A stretch of DNA of 20,534 bases, from IMG/VR virus record IMGVR_UViG_3300042691_022575, positions 1 to 20,534 of that record; one strand, written 5' to 3'. Positions 15,819 through 20,260 of this stretch are shown in pieces. The notes beneath the pieces were generated by a model that had not been told where the DNA came from, searched no databases, and saw only the letters and a program-made list of their open reading frames with translations. Numbering within the stretch: the first letter of the stretch is position 1; each line of letters begins with the position of its first letter. Both the position numbers and the translations under genes were made by a program. The DNA is from a virus.

Positions 15819-16095
15819 AAAGTGTGATAAACATTTTAAGCCTAGAGTAACTTATCAAATATACTGTAGTGATGAGTGTCGCACTATAGCAACAAAAGAA
15901 AAAATATCTGAAAGATATTTAATAACTCGTAGACAAAAAAGAAAAAATAAAATTAGGATGTGTTTAGGTGGATGCAATACTAAACTATCTATTTATAACG
16001 ATGATGGATTTTGTGCTAATTGTAATGTTAGCAAAAAAGCTGTAGACAAAATGTTAAAAGAAATTAAAGGATATTTTGATTATGAGCAAGACTAA
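15805..16095 (+). CDS. Double zinc-finger protein
   Basis: 96 residues from GTG 15805, with GGAGG (15794-15798) six bases upstream, inside the end of the exonuclease gene. First finger: 'CEKC' ... 'YCSDEC' (C-x2-C-x14-C-x3-C), similar to small treble-clef or HNH-associated fingers. Second finger: 'CLGGC' ... 'FCANC' (C-x3-C and C-x2-C). A very basic linker ('TRRQKRKNKIR') joins them, suited to contacting DNA or RNA. No HNH catalytic histidines are seen. Function unknown; the context among recombination enzymes suggests a nucleic-acid-binding accessory. Confidence 0.7.
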   Translation: MKQCEKCDKHFKPRVTYQIYCSDECRTIATKEKISERYLITRRQKRKNKIRMCLGGCNTKLSIYNDDGFCANCNVSKKAVDKMLKEIKGYFDYEQD

Positions 16096-16654
16096 CCAAC
16101 CTAGCCATATATGTGCAATTGATGCCAGCACAAATAGTCTTGCTTTTGCATTTTATACATATAAGCAATTAACTGGGTATGGAAAAATAAATTTTGAAGG
16201 TAACAATATTTATGAAAAAGCACAGGATGCTACTGCAAAAACTAAAGCACTGTTTAATCACTACAATATGATTAATGCTATTGTTATTGAGCATACAGTT
16301 TTTATGAATTCCCCTAAAACCGCAGCAGATCTTGCTATGGTACAGGGAGCAATTATAGGTGGTGCTGGATTGTCAGGTATCAAGGAAATAGGCAGGGTAT
16401 CGCCAATAACATGGCAGAACTATCTAGGTAATAAGAAACTATCTAAAGAAGAGCAGCTACAAATAAGGTCTGCTAATCCTGGAAAATCTTTATCTTGGTA
16501 TAAATCATATGAGCGTGATTTTAGAAAGAAAAGAACAATTAAACTTTTAGAAATATCATACGACAAAAAGATAGATGATTATGATGTTGCAGATGCAGCA
16601 GGAATAGGTCATTGGGCAATTAATAATTGGACAAAGGCAATATCATATGATTAA
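16082..16654 (+). CDS. RuvC-like Holliday junction resolvase
   Basis: 190 residues from ATG 16082; a TTG two codons upstream is less likely. RNase H-fold resolvase pattern: 'ICAIDASTNSLAFAF' with D14 as first catalytic aspartate, 'AIVIEHTVFM' with E70, and 'DYDVADAAGIGHWAI' with D168/D171 as the last acidic pair. Basic helix 'YERDFRKKRTIKLLEI' lies before the last motif. It should cut four-way junctions, resolving RecA products or branched replication DNA before packaging. Overlaps its upstream neighbour by 14 bases and its downstream neighbour by 8. Confidence 0.85.
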   Translation: MSKTNQPSHICAIDASTNSLAFAFYTYKQLTGYGKINFEGNNIYEKAQDATAKTKALFNHYNMINAIVIEHTVFMNSPKTAADLAMVQGAIIGGAGLSGIKEIGRVSPITWQNYLGNKKLSKEEQLQIRSANPGKSLSWYKSYERDFRKKRTIKLLEISYDKKIDDYDVADAAGIGHWAINNWTKAISYD

Positions 16655-17579
16655 TATATCTAATATTACATTAAATGATATAGGCGGTTTTACTAAAACT
16701 GTTTATACAGAAAATGATTTAAATATTTTGGGTTGGTATCCAACAAATCTTAATATTTTTGAATATAATAATGAGTATATTGCAGTATTTCGCTCAGTTA
16801 ATTATATTATAGATGACACTGGAGTTGGTAGAACAACAACTGGTAAAAATTTATATAATAAAATTTTTATTGGAAAATTTGATATAAACAAATTAGAATT
16901 GTTTGATATTAAAGAAATTGAAATAAAAGAGTTAGAGAATAGTGGATTGATGGGTATAGAGGACCCTAAAATTATATTTAGAAAAAATTCTCTTTATATT
17001 GTTTGCACATTAACAAAATATGAATCAAGTCATCTATGTAAAATGGCAATATGCAAATTAAACAATGATTTAGATCAAATAGAAAAAATAACTATTTTAG
17101 ACTCACCTAATTCTTTTAAGCCTGAAAAAAATTGGATGTTTCCTAACATTGAAAATAATAATTTTGATTTTGTTTATGAATTTAATACAATAGTAAAAAA
17201 TAACAAATTAGTTAGAGATTTTCATACAAGCTTTTTTACTTCAGAGCTAGATTATAAATTAAGAGGAAACGGAACACTGCTAAACACTGAGGATGGGTAT
17301 ATTTGCATTATGCATTCATCTTATGGAAAATTTTATAATCATTTTTTTTGTAAGTTAGATATAAATGGAAAATTTATAGGCATATCAGATCCATTTATTT
17401 TTGATAGTCCAGGAATAGAATTCGCAGCTGGAATATTTAAATATAATGATAACTATATAATTAGTTATGGGAAAAATGATAGAGAATGCAAGGTGGGCAT
17501 AATACCAATAAAAAATGTAGAAAATTTAATAAATAAAATTGAATACAATAACTTGAAAGATATTGCCCATGTCTGGTAA
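16647..17579 (+). CDS. Beta-propeller glycosidase/phosphorylase-like protein (GH130/GH43-type fold)
   Basis: 310 residues, ATG 16647, inside the end of the resolvase gene. Repeated blade-like patterns of strand-turn-strand are visible: 'PTNLNIFEYNNEYIAVFRS' (32-50), 'GIEDPKIIFRKNSLYIVC' (103-120), 'EKNWMFPNI' (160-168), 'GYICIMHSSYG' (217-227) and 'IEFAAGIFKYNDNYIISYG' (257-275). The 'EDP' and 'KNW-P' motifs and the final 'AAG...ISYGKND' match the general signature of GH130 mannoside phosphorylases and related five-bladed propellers, some of which act as mannosyltransferases. The substrate cannot be read. The gene is even more AT-rich than its surroundings, rich in Asn, Ile and Lys, and interrupts the DNA-metabolism cluster. 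This suggests an acquired accessory gene, perhaps for altering host or virion glycans. Confidence 0.55.
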   Translation: MINISNITLNDIGGFTKTVYTENDLNILGWYPTNLNIFEYNNEYIAVFRSVNYIIDDTGVGRTTTGKNLYNKIFIGKFDINKLELFDIKEIEIKELENSGLMGIEDPKIIFRKNSLYIVCTLTKYESSHLCKMAICKLNNDLDQIEKITILDSPNSFKPEKNWMFPNIENNNFDFVYEFNTIVKNNKLVRDFHTSFFTSELDYKLRGNGTLLNTEDGYICIMHSSYGKFYNHFFCKLDINGKFIGISDPFIFDSPGIEFAAGIFKYNDNYIISYGKNDRECKVGIIPIKNVENLINKIEYNNLKDIAHVW

Positions 17580-17724
17580 ACTATATTCTAATGAATTATG
17601 GCTCAAAAAAAGATTTCATATAGATAAGAAATCTCCAGACGAAATAGCAAAGGAATGTGGGGTAAGTGTGGAAACAATATATGTATACCTTGCTAAATTT
17701 GGATTGAGGAAATCAAAGCGATGA
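17569..17724 (+). CDS. 51-residue helix-turn-helix protein
   Basis: ATG 17569 lies 11 bases before the end of the glycosidase-like gene, and the TGA stop overlaps the next ATG (ATGA). The product reads 'MSGKLYSNELWLKKRF', then 'SPDEIAKECGVSVETIYVYL' and a basic tail. The segment from 'SPDEIAKECG' to 'VETIYVYLAKFG' is a textbook homeodomain-like HTH with 'ECGVS' at the turn. A 51-codon frame could be chance, but coupling at both ends and a coherent HTH argue that it is real. The basic, short form suggests a small DNA-binding regulator or a terminase/endonuclease accessory. Confidence 0.7.
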   Translation: MSGKLYSNELWLKKRFHIDKKSPDEIAKECGVSVETIYVYLAKFGLRKSKR

Positions 17725-17996
17725 ATGACAAAGAAAAATTTATTATTAAGGTTGATCAGGTTAATCATCCTTACCATTACACCACTGATCCAAGTGGTGT
17801 AGAAGCAATTGAAATTACTAGACACAGAAACTTTAATATTGGTAATGCAATAAAGTATCTCTGGAGGGCTGGTATTAAAGATGAATCTAAGCATATTGAA
17901 GATTTAAAGAAGGCTATCTTTTATATTCAAGATGAAATCAATAGACTAGAGGGAAAATATGACAAGCGCAGAATTAGATCTCGTAAAACATCTTGA
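17721..17996 (+). CDS. DUF3310 family protein
   Basis: 91 residues, ATG 17721 with GAGGA about ten bases upstream and an ATGA overlap with the small HTH gene. The family signature is clear: 'VNHPYHYTTDPSGVEAIEI' (14-32), 'NFNIGNAIKYLWRAGIKDES' (37-56), and 'EDLKKAIFYIQDEINRL' (60-76). DUF3310 proteins are widespread in tailed phages; they are sometimes annotated as nucleotide kinase-like, without firm biochemistry. The C-terminus is very basic ('KYDKRRIRSRKTS'). The gene overlaps the small terminase candidate by 38 bases. Confidence 0.85.
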   Translation: MNDKEKFIIKVDQVNHPYHYTTDPSGVEAIEITRHRNFNIGNAIKYLWRAGIKDESKHIEDLKKAIFYIQDEINRLEGKYDKRRIRSRKTS

Positions 17997-18498
17997 TGAA
18001 GTAAATAAAGTTGTTGAGGAATATCTTAAGGGAAATGATCCCACAAAAATATCTAAAACATTAGATTTGCCACGAACTCGTGTTGTTGCACATTTAAATG
18101 AATGGAAGGCTATGGCATCTGCAAATGATGCTATTCGTGCTCGTGCTAAAGATGCATTAGTTGCTGCAGATACACATTATACAAAACTAATTCAGCAGGC
18201 ATATGAAGTTATAGATGATGCTACAACTACTGCAAATTTAGCTGCAAAAACACAGGCAATTAAATTAGTAATGGATATTGAATCTAAAAGAATTGATATG
18301 CTACAAAAGGCTGGATTGCTTGAAAATAAAGAACTTGCAGAAGAAATGGTTGAAATCGAACGTAGACAGGAAGTTCTTGTTGGTATTCTTAGAGATATAG
18401 CATCAGAACATCCAGAGGTTCGTGATTTAATTATGCAAAGACTTTCTTCTATTGCTAAAGAAGGAGAAGTGATCACAGTTGTCAGCAATGTTCAATGA
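17959..18498 (+). CDS. terS: Small terminase subunit (putative)
   Basis: 179 residues, ATG 17959 behind GAGGGA. The N-terminal third has an HTH ('NDPTKISKTLDLPRTRVVAH'), which would recognise the packaging site. The rest is long amphipathic helix ('AKTQAIKLVMDIESKRIDML', 'EEMVEIERRQEVLVGILRDI') suited to ring assembly, ending in a short strand-like tail ('EGEVITVVSNVQ'). This is the usual build of phage TerS. The strongest evidence is the 20-base overlap with the large terminase gene. Confidence 0.72.
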   Translation: MTSAELDLVKHLDEVNKVVEEYLKGNDPTKISKTLDLPRTRVVAHLNEWKAMASANDAIRARAKDALVAADTHYTKLIQQAYEVIDDATTTANLAAKTQAIKLVMDIESKRIDMLQKAGLLENKELAEEMVEIERRQEVLVGILRDIASEHPEVRDLIMQRLSSIAKEGEVITVVSNVQ

Positions 18499-20260
18499 TT
18501 TTCTTGAAGCACTTCAAGATAATCCATTTGAAGAAACTCCAGTAGATGTAAAAACATTTGTTGAGTCTCCAGATTATTTGGGACAACCATCACTGTCTTC
18601 AATTCAATATGACATTGTAGAAGCAATGAGTCAGATTTATAAAAAAGAAGACTTACAAATTTTGCTAGGAACAGAACAAGGAGATAGACATTATTCTAAA
18701 TATACAAAAAATGAAATTATTCTTCAACTCGGAAAAGGTTCTGGGAAAGATTTTGTTTCTACTGTTGCTTGTGCTTACGTTGTGTATAAGTTATTATGCC
18801 TTAAGGACCCAGCAAGATATTACGGTAAGCCCAGTGGCGATGCCATAGATATTATTAACGTTGCTATTAACGCAGAGCAAGCCAAGAACGTTTTCTTTAA
18901 AGGTTTTAAAACAAAGATTGAAAAGTCTCCATGGTTTGCTGGAAAATATGATCCTAAAGTAAATTCTATTGGTTTTGATAAATCTATTACAGTTTATTCT
19001 GGACACTCAGAAAGAGAATCCCATGAAGGTCTTAACTTATTTATGGCGGTACTTGATGAAATTTCTGGATTTGCTACAGAAGTAGGAACAGGAAACGATC
19101 AAGGTAAAACTGCTGATAATATTTATAAAGCATTTCGTGGTACTGTAGATTCTCGTTTTCCAGATTTAGGTAAAGTAGTTCTTCTTTCATTTCCTCGTTA
19201 CAATGGAGACTTTATTTCAAAGCGGTATGAAGATGTAATTATGGAAAAAGATGTAATAGAGCGTAGATATAAATTTATTATTAATGAAGATCTACCAGAA
19301 GGACCAGATAATGAATTTGAAATAACTTGGGAAGAAGATCATATTAAATCTTATAAATATCCTAGAATGTTTGCTCTTAAAAGACCTACGTGGGAAGTAA
19401 ACCCTACTAGAAAAATTGATGATTTTAAGATTGCATTTCTTACTGATATAGGAGATGCCATGATGCGTTTTTTATGTACCCCAACATATTCATCAGACGC
19501 TTTCTTTAAACAAAAGGATAAATTAGAAAAATGTATGACTTTAAGAAATCCTATTGATAATCACAGAAGATTTGAATCAAATTTTAAGCCTGATCCAGAT
19601 AAAATTTATTATGTTCATGCTGACTTAGCTCAAGTACATGATAAATGTGCAGTAGCAATTGCACATGTTGAACGCTGGGTAAATATTCAGGTAATTAAAG
19701 ATTACGAACAGGTGGCTCCTATTGTTGTTGTAGATGCTGTTGCTTGGTGGGAACCAAGAGTAGAGGGACCAGTAGATTTATCTGAAGTTAAAAGATGGAT
19801 TATTAATCTTCGCAGAGAAGGTTTTAATATTGGTATGGTTACATTTGACCGTTGGCAATCTTTTGATATTCAACAAGAATTAAAAGCGGTAGGAATGAGA
19901 ACTGATACTGTTTCTGTTGCTAAAAAACATTATGAAGATTTAGCAATGATGATATATGAAGAAAGAATTGCAATGCCCAAAATACCTTTGCTTCTTGAAG
20001 AAATGAGTGAGCTTAAGATTATGAAAAATAATCGTGTAGATCACCCACGTAAGAAATCAAAGGACTTAGCAGATGCCGTTTGTGGGGCGGTATTTGGGGC
20101 AATCTCGCATACAAGTAGAGACTCTAATCTAGAAATTGAGGTTCATACTTGGTCATCTGCCTCCCGACTTGCAGATAAGCAAAGGGCTATGGTAGAATTA
20201 GATTCTGAGGAAATTCCTGACGATGTTCAAGAATACCTTGGTGAATATAAAATAATATAA
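18479..20260 (+). CDS. terL: Large terminase subunit (ATPase-nuclease)
   Basis: 593 residues from TTG 18479, the first start codon after an in-frame stop at 18470, with AAGGAG 13 bases upstream; ATG 18488 is a close alternative. ATPase: Walker A 'LGKGSGKDF' (84-92, Asp in place of the usual Ser/Thr after Lys), Walker B 'MAVLDEISG' (D193, E194), and a coupling-like 'VVLLSFPRYNGD'. RNase H-like nuclease: D382 in 'VHADLAQVHD', D457 in 'VTFDRWQS', and D532 in 'KDLADAVCGA'. It drives DNA into the prohead and cuts concatemers. Length is normal for TerL. A 24-base gap separates it from the last gene. Confidence 0.93.
   Translation: MSAMFNDFLEALQDNPFEETPVDVKTFVESPDYLGQPSLSSIQYDIVEAMSQIYKKEDLQILLGTEQGDRHYSKYTKNEIILQLGKGSGKDFVSTVACAYVVYKLLCLKDPARYYGKPSGDAIDIINVAINAEQAKNVFFKGFKTKIEKSPWFAGKYDPKVNSIGFDKSITVYSGHSERESHEGLNLFMAVLDEISGFATEVGTGNDQGKTADNIYKAFRGTVDSRFPDLGKVVLLSFPRYNGDFISKRYEDVIMEKDVIERRYKFIINEDLPEGPDNEFEITWEEDHIKSYKYPRMFALKRPTWEVNPTRKIDDFKIAFLTDIGDAMMRFLCTPTYSSDAFFKQKDKLEKCMTLRNPIDNHRRFESNFKPDPDKIYYVHADLAQVHDKCAVAIAHVERWVNIQVIKDYEQVAPIVVVDAVAWWEPRVEGPVDLSEVKRWIINLRREGFNIGMVTFDRWQSFDIQQELKAVGMRTDTVSVAKKHYEDLAMMIYEERIAMPKIPLLLEEMSELKIMKNNRVDHPRKKSKDLADAVCGAVFGAISHTSRDSNLEIEVHTWSSASRLADKQRAMVELDSEEIPDDVQEYLGEYKII

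Follow-up and report, generated by a model that had tools for sequence, protein, structure and literature searches.

Results

A single gene between the resolvase and the packaging genes

The window, by which we mean the whole stretch of 20,534 nucleotides analysed here (IMG/VR record IMGVR_UViG_3300042691_022575), is a 20.5-kb fragment of the genome of a freshwater phage that has Streptomyces phages among its relatives. Its large terminase subunit (TerL) and DnaE are 54–55% identical to those of Stanwilliamsviridae Streptomyces phages (Karimac, BillNye), and all three phages have the gene order RecA, Holliday resolvase, Cas4-like nuclease, RuvC, HTH and terminase in common; on this basis, an actinobacterium is the likely host. 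A tight co-directional operon in the window includes an intact ORF encoding a 310-aa protein, referred to as the cargo gene (Table 1). As an earlier note on this DNA had stated, it lies between a RuvC-like resolvase and the packaging genes.

Table 1. Positions of genes, codons and motifs at the cargo locus, and of a protein recurring at the same spot in relatives
Feature	Record	Position	Strand	Remark
RuvC-like resolvase (phrog_159)	window	16076..16654	+	left flank of insertion site; overlaps cargo start by 8 bp
Cargo gene, 310-aa protein (predicted five-bladed propeller) of the viral GH130-related family	window	16647..17579	+	from sequence, fold, profiles and tree
Asn34 codon	window	16746..16748	+	= BT3780 Asn74, donor mannose site (PMC4599007, PMC4264767)
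Glu105-Asp106 codons	window	16959..16964	+	= BT3780 Glu141-Asp142; Asp is the GH130 catalytic acid candidate (PMC4599007)
Arg206 codon	window	17262..17264	+	invariant in viral family; column of hydrolase base Glu268
His223 codon	window	17313..17315	+	His in GH130 phosphorylases, Asn in GH130 hydrolases
Asp278 codon	window	17478..17480	+	= BT3780 Asp363, holds O4/O6 of donor mannose (PMC4599007)
51-aa HTH protein	window	17569..17724	+	right flank of insertion site; overlaps cargo end by 11 bp
DUF3310 protein	window	17721..17996	+	Pfam match
Probable small terminase subunit (TerS; phrog_9507)	window	17959..18498	+	function inferred from position
TerL	window	18479..20260	+	~54% identical to Stanwilliamsviridae Streptomyces phages
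EDP motif	cargo protein	residues 105-107
KNW motif	cargo protein	residues 161-163
ISYGKND motif	cargo protein	residues 272-278
~214-aa cargo-spot protein	L023	2979-3641
~214-aa cargo-spot protein	L080	8360-8992
~214-aa cargo-spot protein	L081	452-1093
~214-aa cargo-spot protein	L082	1068-1709
~214-aa cargo-spot protein	L084	6436-7077

The GC content of the cargo gene is 0.240, compared with 0.277–0.387 in the other window genes longer than ~280 bp (z -3.3), and 47% of its residues are FYMINK (z 3.9 versus the other window genes). Third-position GC is ordinary (0.158, z -0.5), and the AT bias thus sits in the choice of amino acids rather than in foreign or unadapted codons. The AT bias and the Asn/Ile/Lys richness reported earlier are therefore real, but they do not extend to foreign codon usage, and a recent transfer as read from codons is unsupported. 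No hydrophobic segment was seen in the N-terminus of the protein (MINISNITLNDIGGFTKTVYTEND), which looks cytoplasmic and without secretion signal, as previously suggested.

Using the window TerL as query, at least 597 related stretches were found in IMG/VR, 80 of which were read, and the insertion site was compared in the 65 relatives carrying RuvC, HTH and TerS. RuvC is directly followed by HTH in 50 of the 65, i.e. the site is empty. The other 15 carry inserts comprising small ORFs, a ~214-aa protein, an HNH-like ORF (in L021, called from reading of the sequence and with no Pfam match), a methyltransferase and a tryptophan-halogenase-like protein. A GH130-like gene occupies the RuvC–HTH site in none of the 80 relatives' loci, and a family member is absent from the whole record in 19 of 20 relatives searched. 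The exception is contig G307 (TerL 91% identical to that of the window), in which a family member lies at another place, with genes for a TPR-like protein and an FkbM methyltransferase after it. From the mostly empty site, the varied inserts and the absence of the gene in relatives we conclude that the gene is cargo, precisely inserted as a single gene into a spot of interchangeable genes; that it was acquired had been proposed from the sequence.

The interval between HTH and TerS is variable too, with Gly_transf_sug glycosyltransferases in L049 (two) and L081, and in cultured phages a gene annotated as glycosyltransferase (BillNye gp160) or a gene for an FkbM methyltransferase (Karimac gp95). 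The earlier remark that no other sugar genes lie beside the cargo gene is correct for the window but misleading for the locus, since this interval in relatives holds glycosyltransferases and methyltransferases and the closest homologues have a methyltransferase upstream.

Several features of these variable intervals deserve mention in their own right. The tryptophan-halogenase-like flavoprotein (L080:6897-8357, Pfam E 3.6e-89) occupies the RuvC–HTH spot of its phage. The conserved ~214-aa protein (MPELNANIPPIECYVRGN...) recurs at the cargo spot in five relatives' loci, and a ~256-aa protein family recurs between HTH and the terminase genes (L010:8483-9250, L011:2606-3373, L005:4857-5660). The HTH protein of the window is similar to the HTH found at the N-terminus of HNH endonucleases and, together with the HNH-like ORF in L021, may point to homing endonucleases that keep the site active.

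The cargo protein is related to GH130

Taken alone, the sequence evidence for GH130 is marginal: the cargo protein scores 26.2 bits against Pfam PF04041 (cut-off 26), PHROGs and NCBIfam profiles have no family for it, and PDB sequence searches with it are weak. The relationship is made firm by the predicted structure, a profile-profile comparison and a joint alignment. An AlphaFold2 model based on 63 aligned sequences (pLDDT 87, pTM 0.88) is a five-bladed propeller, and its best 34 matches in the PDB are all GH130. They are headed by the beta-1,2-mannobiose phosphorylase 7fir (E 7.5e-11, TM 0.63) and include the mannoside synthase Uhgb_MS (9erg) and the hydrolase structures 5a7v and 3qc2. The first GH43 structure is found at rank 35 (E 9.7e-6, TM 0.39) and Leishmania GT108 (MPT4, 6q50) at rank 49 (TM 0.50), and these ranks rule out GH43 and GT108 as the closest families. 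Neither phmmer nor profile searches at E 10 found a sequence match to 6q50. The five-bladed propeller of the GH130/GH43 superfamily predicted in the earlier note is thus borne out as one of GH130 type, and no confident placement in a non-sugar family was obtained.

The profiles of the viral family and bacterial GH130 align colinearly over 254 columns (E 6.6e-6), and Pfam GH130 at E 0.01 recognizes just 13 of 63 viral family members. A quick tree separates 48 viral rows from 6 GH130 rows with 100% support, albeit with long branches and few GH130 rows. In this tree, the window protein groups with seven sequences including DSL-LC01 (98% SH-aLRT) on a very long branch of its own (2.15). By sequence, it appears to sit outside the sampled GH130 of characterised type, in a separate virus-borne clade.

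The donor site is kept and the hydrolase base is replaced

In the joint alignment, N34, R49, E105, D106, Y230, F259 and D278 of the cargo protein correspond to N74, R89, E141, D142, Y302, F344 and D363 of the beta-1,2-mannosidase BT3780, residues with a role in mannose binding or catalysis (PMC4599007; for the donor triad also PMC4264767). N34, D106 and D278 are kept across all GH130 and viral rows in which the column is present. The beta-1,2-mannoside phosphorylases Teth514_1788, Teth514_1789 and Lin0857 and the synthase Uhgb_MS are only 14–17% identical to the cargo protein in structural alignment. Even so, they have in common with it the five-bladed propeller, the EDP motif, the Asn/Asp/Asp donor residues, the +1 subsite Arg, the cradle Tyr/Phe and the phosphorylase-type His. 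With the GH130_NC mannosidases (BT3780, BACOVA_03624) it has the fold, the donor site and the Glu-Asp pair of EDP in common. The GT108 mannosyltransferase/phosphorylases of Leishmania (MPT4) belong to the same fold class and likely use the same inverting beta-mannosyl transfer (PMC8950772).

Where hydrolases carry the base Glu268, phosphorylases have Gly and the viral rows Arg206, the same residue in each of the 63 aligned members; because hhalign shifts R206 by one column relative to E268, the register is uncertain by one residue. The column of the second hydrolase base, Glu227, is a gap in the cargo protein, and column 285, Asn in hydrolases and His in phosphorylases, is His223. Unlike the phosphorylases, the viral family does not conserve the basic residue of the phosphate-binding KIG/RIG motif, two positions before the R206 column, and has a signature of its own (R206-G207, H232, E258-F259). 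Judging from position, R206 and H223 may bind phosphate. Equating K161 with the beta-1,2-specific Lys199 of BT3780 was dropped because the alignments disagree in this ambiguous region.

Pfam GH130 includes beta-1,2-mannosidases such as BT3780 (PMC4599007), and hydrolases are among the fold matches, but the invariant Arg at the base column, the change of Asn285 to His, the lack of a counterpart to Glu227 and the missing secretion signal make a beta-mannosidase or other hydrolase stripping host or capsule sugars the least credible reading, and on the active-site columns we rejected it. The protein is probably not a hydrolase, and the Arg makes transfer or reverse phosphorolysis the likely reaction.

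Of the 22 columns with an identity of 97% or more among the other 62 members, the window protein retains 20, although its nearest relative is only ~34% identical; the gene is thus not a decaying copy. The same columns bear on the notion of a non-catalytic propeller derived from GH130, retained for sugar binding or as a scaffold. The long branch and the strong shift in composition are what such a protein might display, but every GH130 donor-site residue compared is among those kept, and decay or scaffold drift is not expected to spare exactly these. We consider this reading improbable.

A virus-borne family

A tblastn search of 50,697 phage records with the cargo protein gave three matches. These genes of the cultured phages DSL-LC01, DSL-LC02 and S-SCSM2R, automatically annotated as 'beta-mannosyltransferase' or 'MGP', are 25–29% identical to it and reside in backbones that differ from the window; in DSL-LC01 a methyltransferase gene immediately precedes the homologue, and nothing matches the window TerL. 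Queried directly with the window protein alone, IMG/VR gave no match, and an alignment of the three phage homologues was needed to recover relatives, which are encoded on at least 423 IMG/VR contigs. Among the contigs of the nearest family members, a TerL search for a window-like phage, run without a positive control, found none.

Searching 84,980 species of cellular genomes with short conserved patterns gave two loci only, both on phage-like 3-kb contigs whose content includes a TPR-type gene directly downstream of the family gene. Within one phylum, 296 genomes were searched with a profile and yielded just the same phage-like contig. Ordinary GH130 genes, distinct from the viral family, occur in 24–25 of 61 genomes of that phylum, and a cellular origin was rejected on these results. 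The family is virus-borne and hardly present in cellular genomes. A Foldseek comparison with models of viral proteins added predicted proteins of pithovirus and other giant viruses, some of them large proteins named fucosyltransferase, LicD or pyruvyltransferase. In the literature searched, we found no work on the viral family described here.

Family members are fused to GT25, radical SAM/SPASM, TPR, TPR plus an FkbM-like domain and, once, a methyltransferase-like domain; the TPR, FkbM-like and methyltransferase-like labels rest partly on reading of the sequences. Neighbours, mostly downstream, belong chiefly to TPR, FkbM and glycosyltransferase families: the counts are TPR 20, FkbM 15, GT2 8, radical SAM 8 and GT17 5 of 79 proteins scanned. 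L088 has a polysaccharide pyruvyltransferase. Large upstream genes, from a selected set, are often tail-fibre or virion proteins; others are a NolO-like carbamoyltransferase and a 2OG-Fe(II) oxygenase. The association with TPR, FkbM and tail fibres derives mainly from the main clade of the family, not from the subclade of the window, where a Methyltransf_23 gene lies directly upstream (in L089 adjacent on the other strand).

Discussion

Most of what is known about GH130 concerns catabolism in cellular microbes. The viral branch described here is large, poorly covered by Pfam and PHROGs, has predicted relatives in giant viruses, and in environmental phages lies within cassettes for glycan synthesis and tail fibres. 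Such a branch would give viruses a new set of tools for glycosylation and could serve as a source of enzymes for beta-mannosylation. In the window, one copy has moved by itself, as cargo, into a replication-packaging block that is conserved in other respects.

On balance, sequence, model and gene context favour a beta-mannosyl-type transferase that works on surface glycoconjugates in the synthetic direction. A cytoplasmic, catalytically competent GH130-related propeller would transfer a mannose-like residue with inversion from a phosphate-bound sugar (mannose-1-phosphate, GDP-mannose or a lipid phosphate) to part of the virion tail or to a glycan of the host envelope. Phage-phage exchange would have brought it, as an accessory gene, into the spot between the RuvC resolvase and the small HTH gene, within a block whose sugar-modifying and other genes are repeatedly exchanged in these phages. 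We infer catalysis, donor, acceptor, direction and biological benefit from what is observed: the predicted fold, the kept donor site, the lost hydrolase base, the insertion, the virus-borne family and its glycan-synthesis neighbourhood. Mannose is assumed as the sugar by analogy with GH130, and the specificity could have changed. Several observations run counter to this reading: the basic residue of the KIG/RIG motif is not conserved, the window protein has a very long branch, no glycan gene adjoins the cargo gene within the window, and the TPR, FkbM and tail-fibre association comes mainly from the main clade.

A more specific and tentative version, which we consider possible but short of probable, is that of a virus-specific family of propeller glycosyltransferases apart from GH130 and GT108, in which an Arg/His phosphate site (R206, H223, H232, E258) would handle nucleotide- or lipid-linked mannose for decorating tail fibres, often collagen-like, or host-envelope glycans.

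The earlier note had allowed for both transfer and phosphorolysis of mannosides. A catabolic phosphorylase would convert host beta-mannosides and phosphate into mannose-1-phosphate for GDP-mannose or energy, and the reactions of GH130 are reversible (PMC4264767). The nearest solved structures are indeed beta-1,2-mannoside phosphorylases, His223 is of their type and the donor site is preserved. However, the family lacks a conserved Lys/Arg of the classical phosphate-binding kind, and the fusions and neighbours are biosynthetic or decorating, with no transporters, epimerases or other glycan-degrading genes seen among them, which favours transfer onto virion or envelope glycans. We regard the catabolic reading as unlikely, although it fares better than the other rivals.

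In line with the idea in the earlier note of a sugar fed to DNA modification, the enzyme might add a sugar to phage DNA or feed a hypermodification pathway. The gene does lie in a DNA-metabolism and packaging block, and some homologues occur near genes of nucleotide metabolism (ribonucleotide reductase in L200 and L002, dCMP deaminase in L085). Hydroxymethyl-pyrimidine or other base-modification genes were, however, seen neither in the window nor among annotated family neighbours, and the spot is a general cargo site; the suggestion found no contextual support and is very improbable. Superinfection exclusion, another role raised in the earlier note, likewise found no specific support.

Collagen-like genes (with runs of 8 to 256 Gly-X-Y) were observed at 27 of 83 family loci, compared with 0 of 80 unmatched control loci, mostly upstream and on the same strand (among others in L096, L101, L119, L120, L126, L133, L139, L148, L158, L162 and L003). 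Of four long contigs, G326 has no such runs, and in G327, G328 and G334 every run found is within ~10 kb of the family gene on the same strand. Glycosylation of collagen-like fibres by family enzymes is possible. Finally, the fusion of the propeller to radical SAM/SPASM in L127, L142, L149, L143 and L155 suggests coupled modification chemistry.
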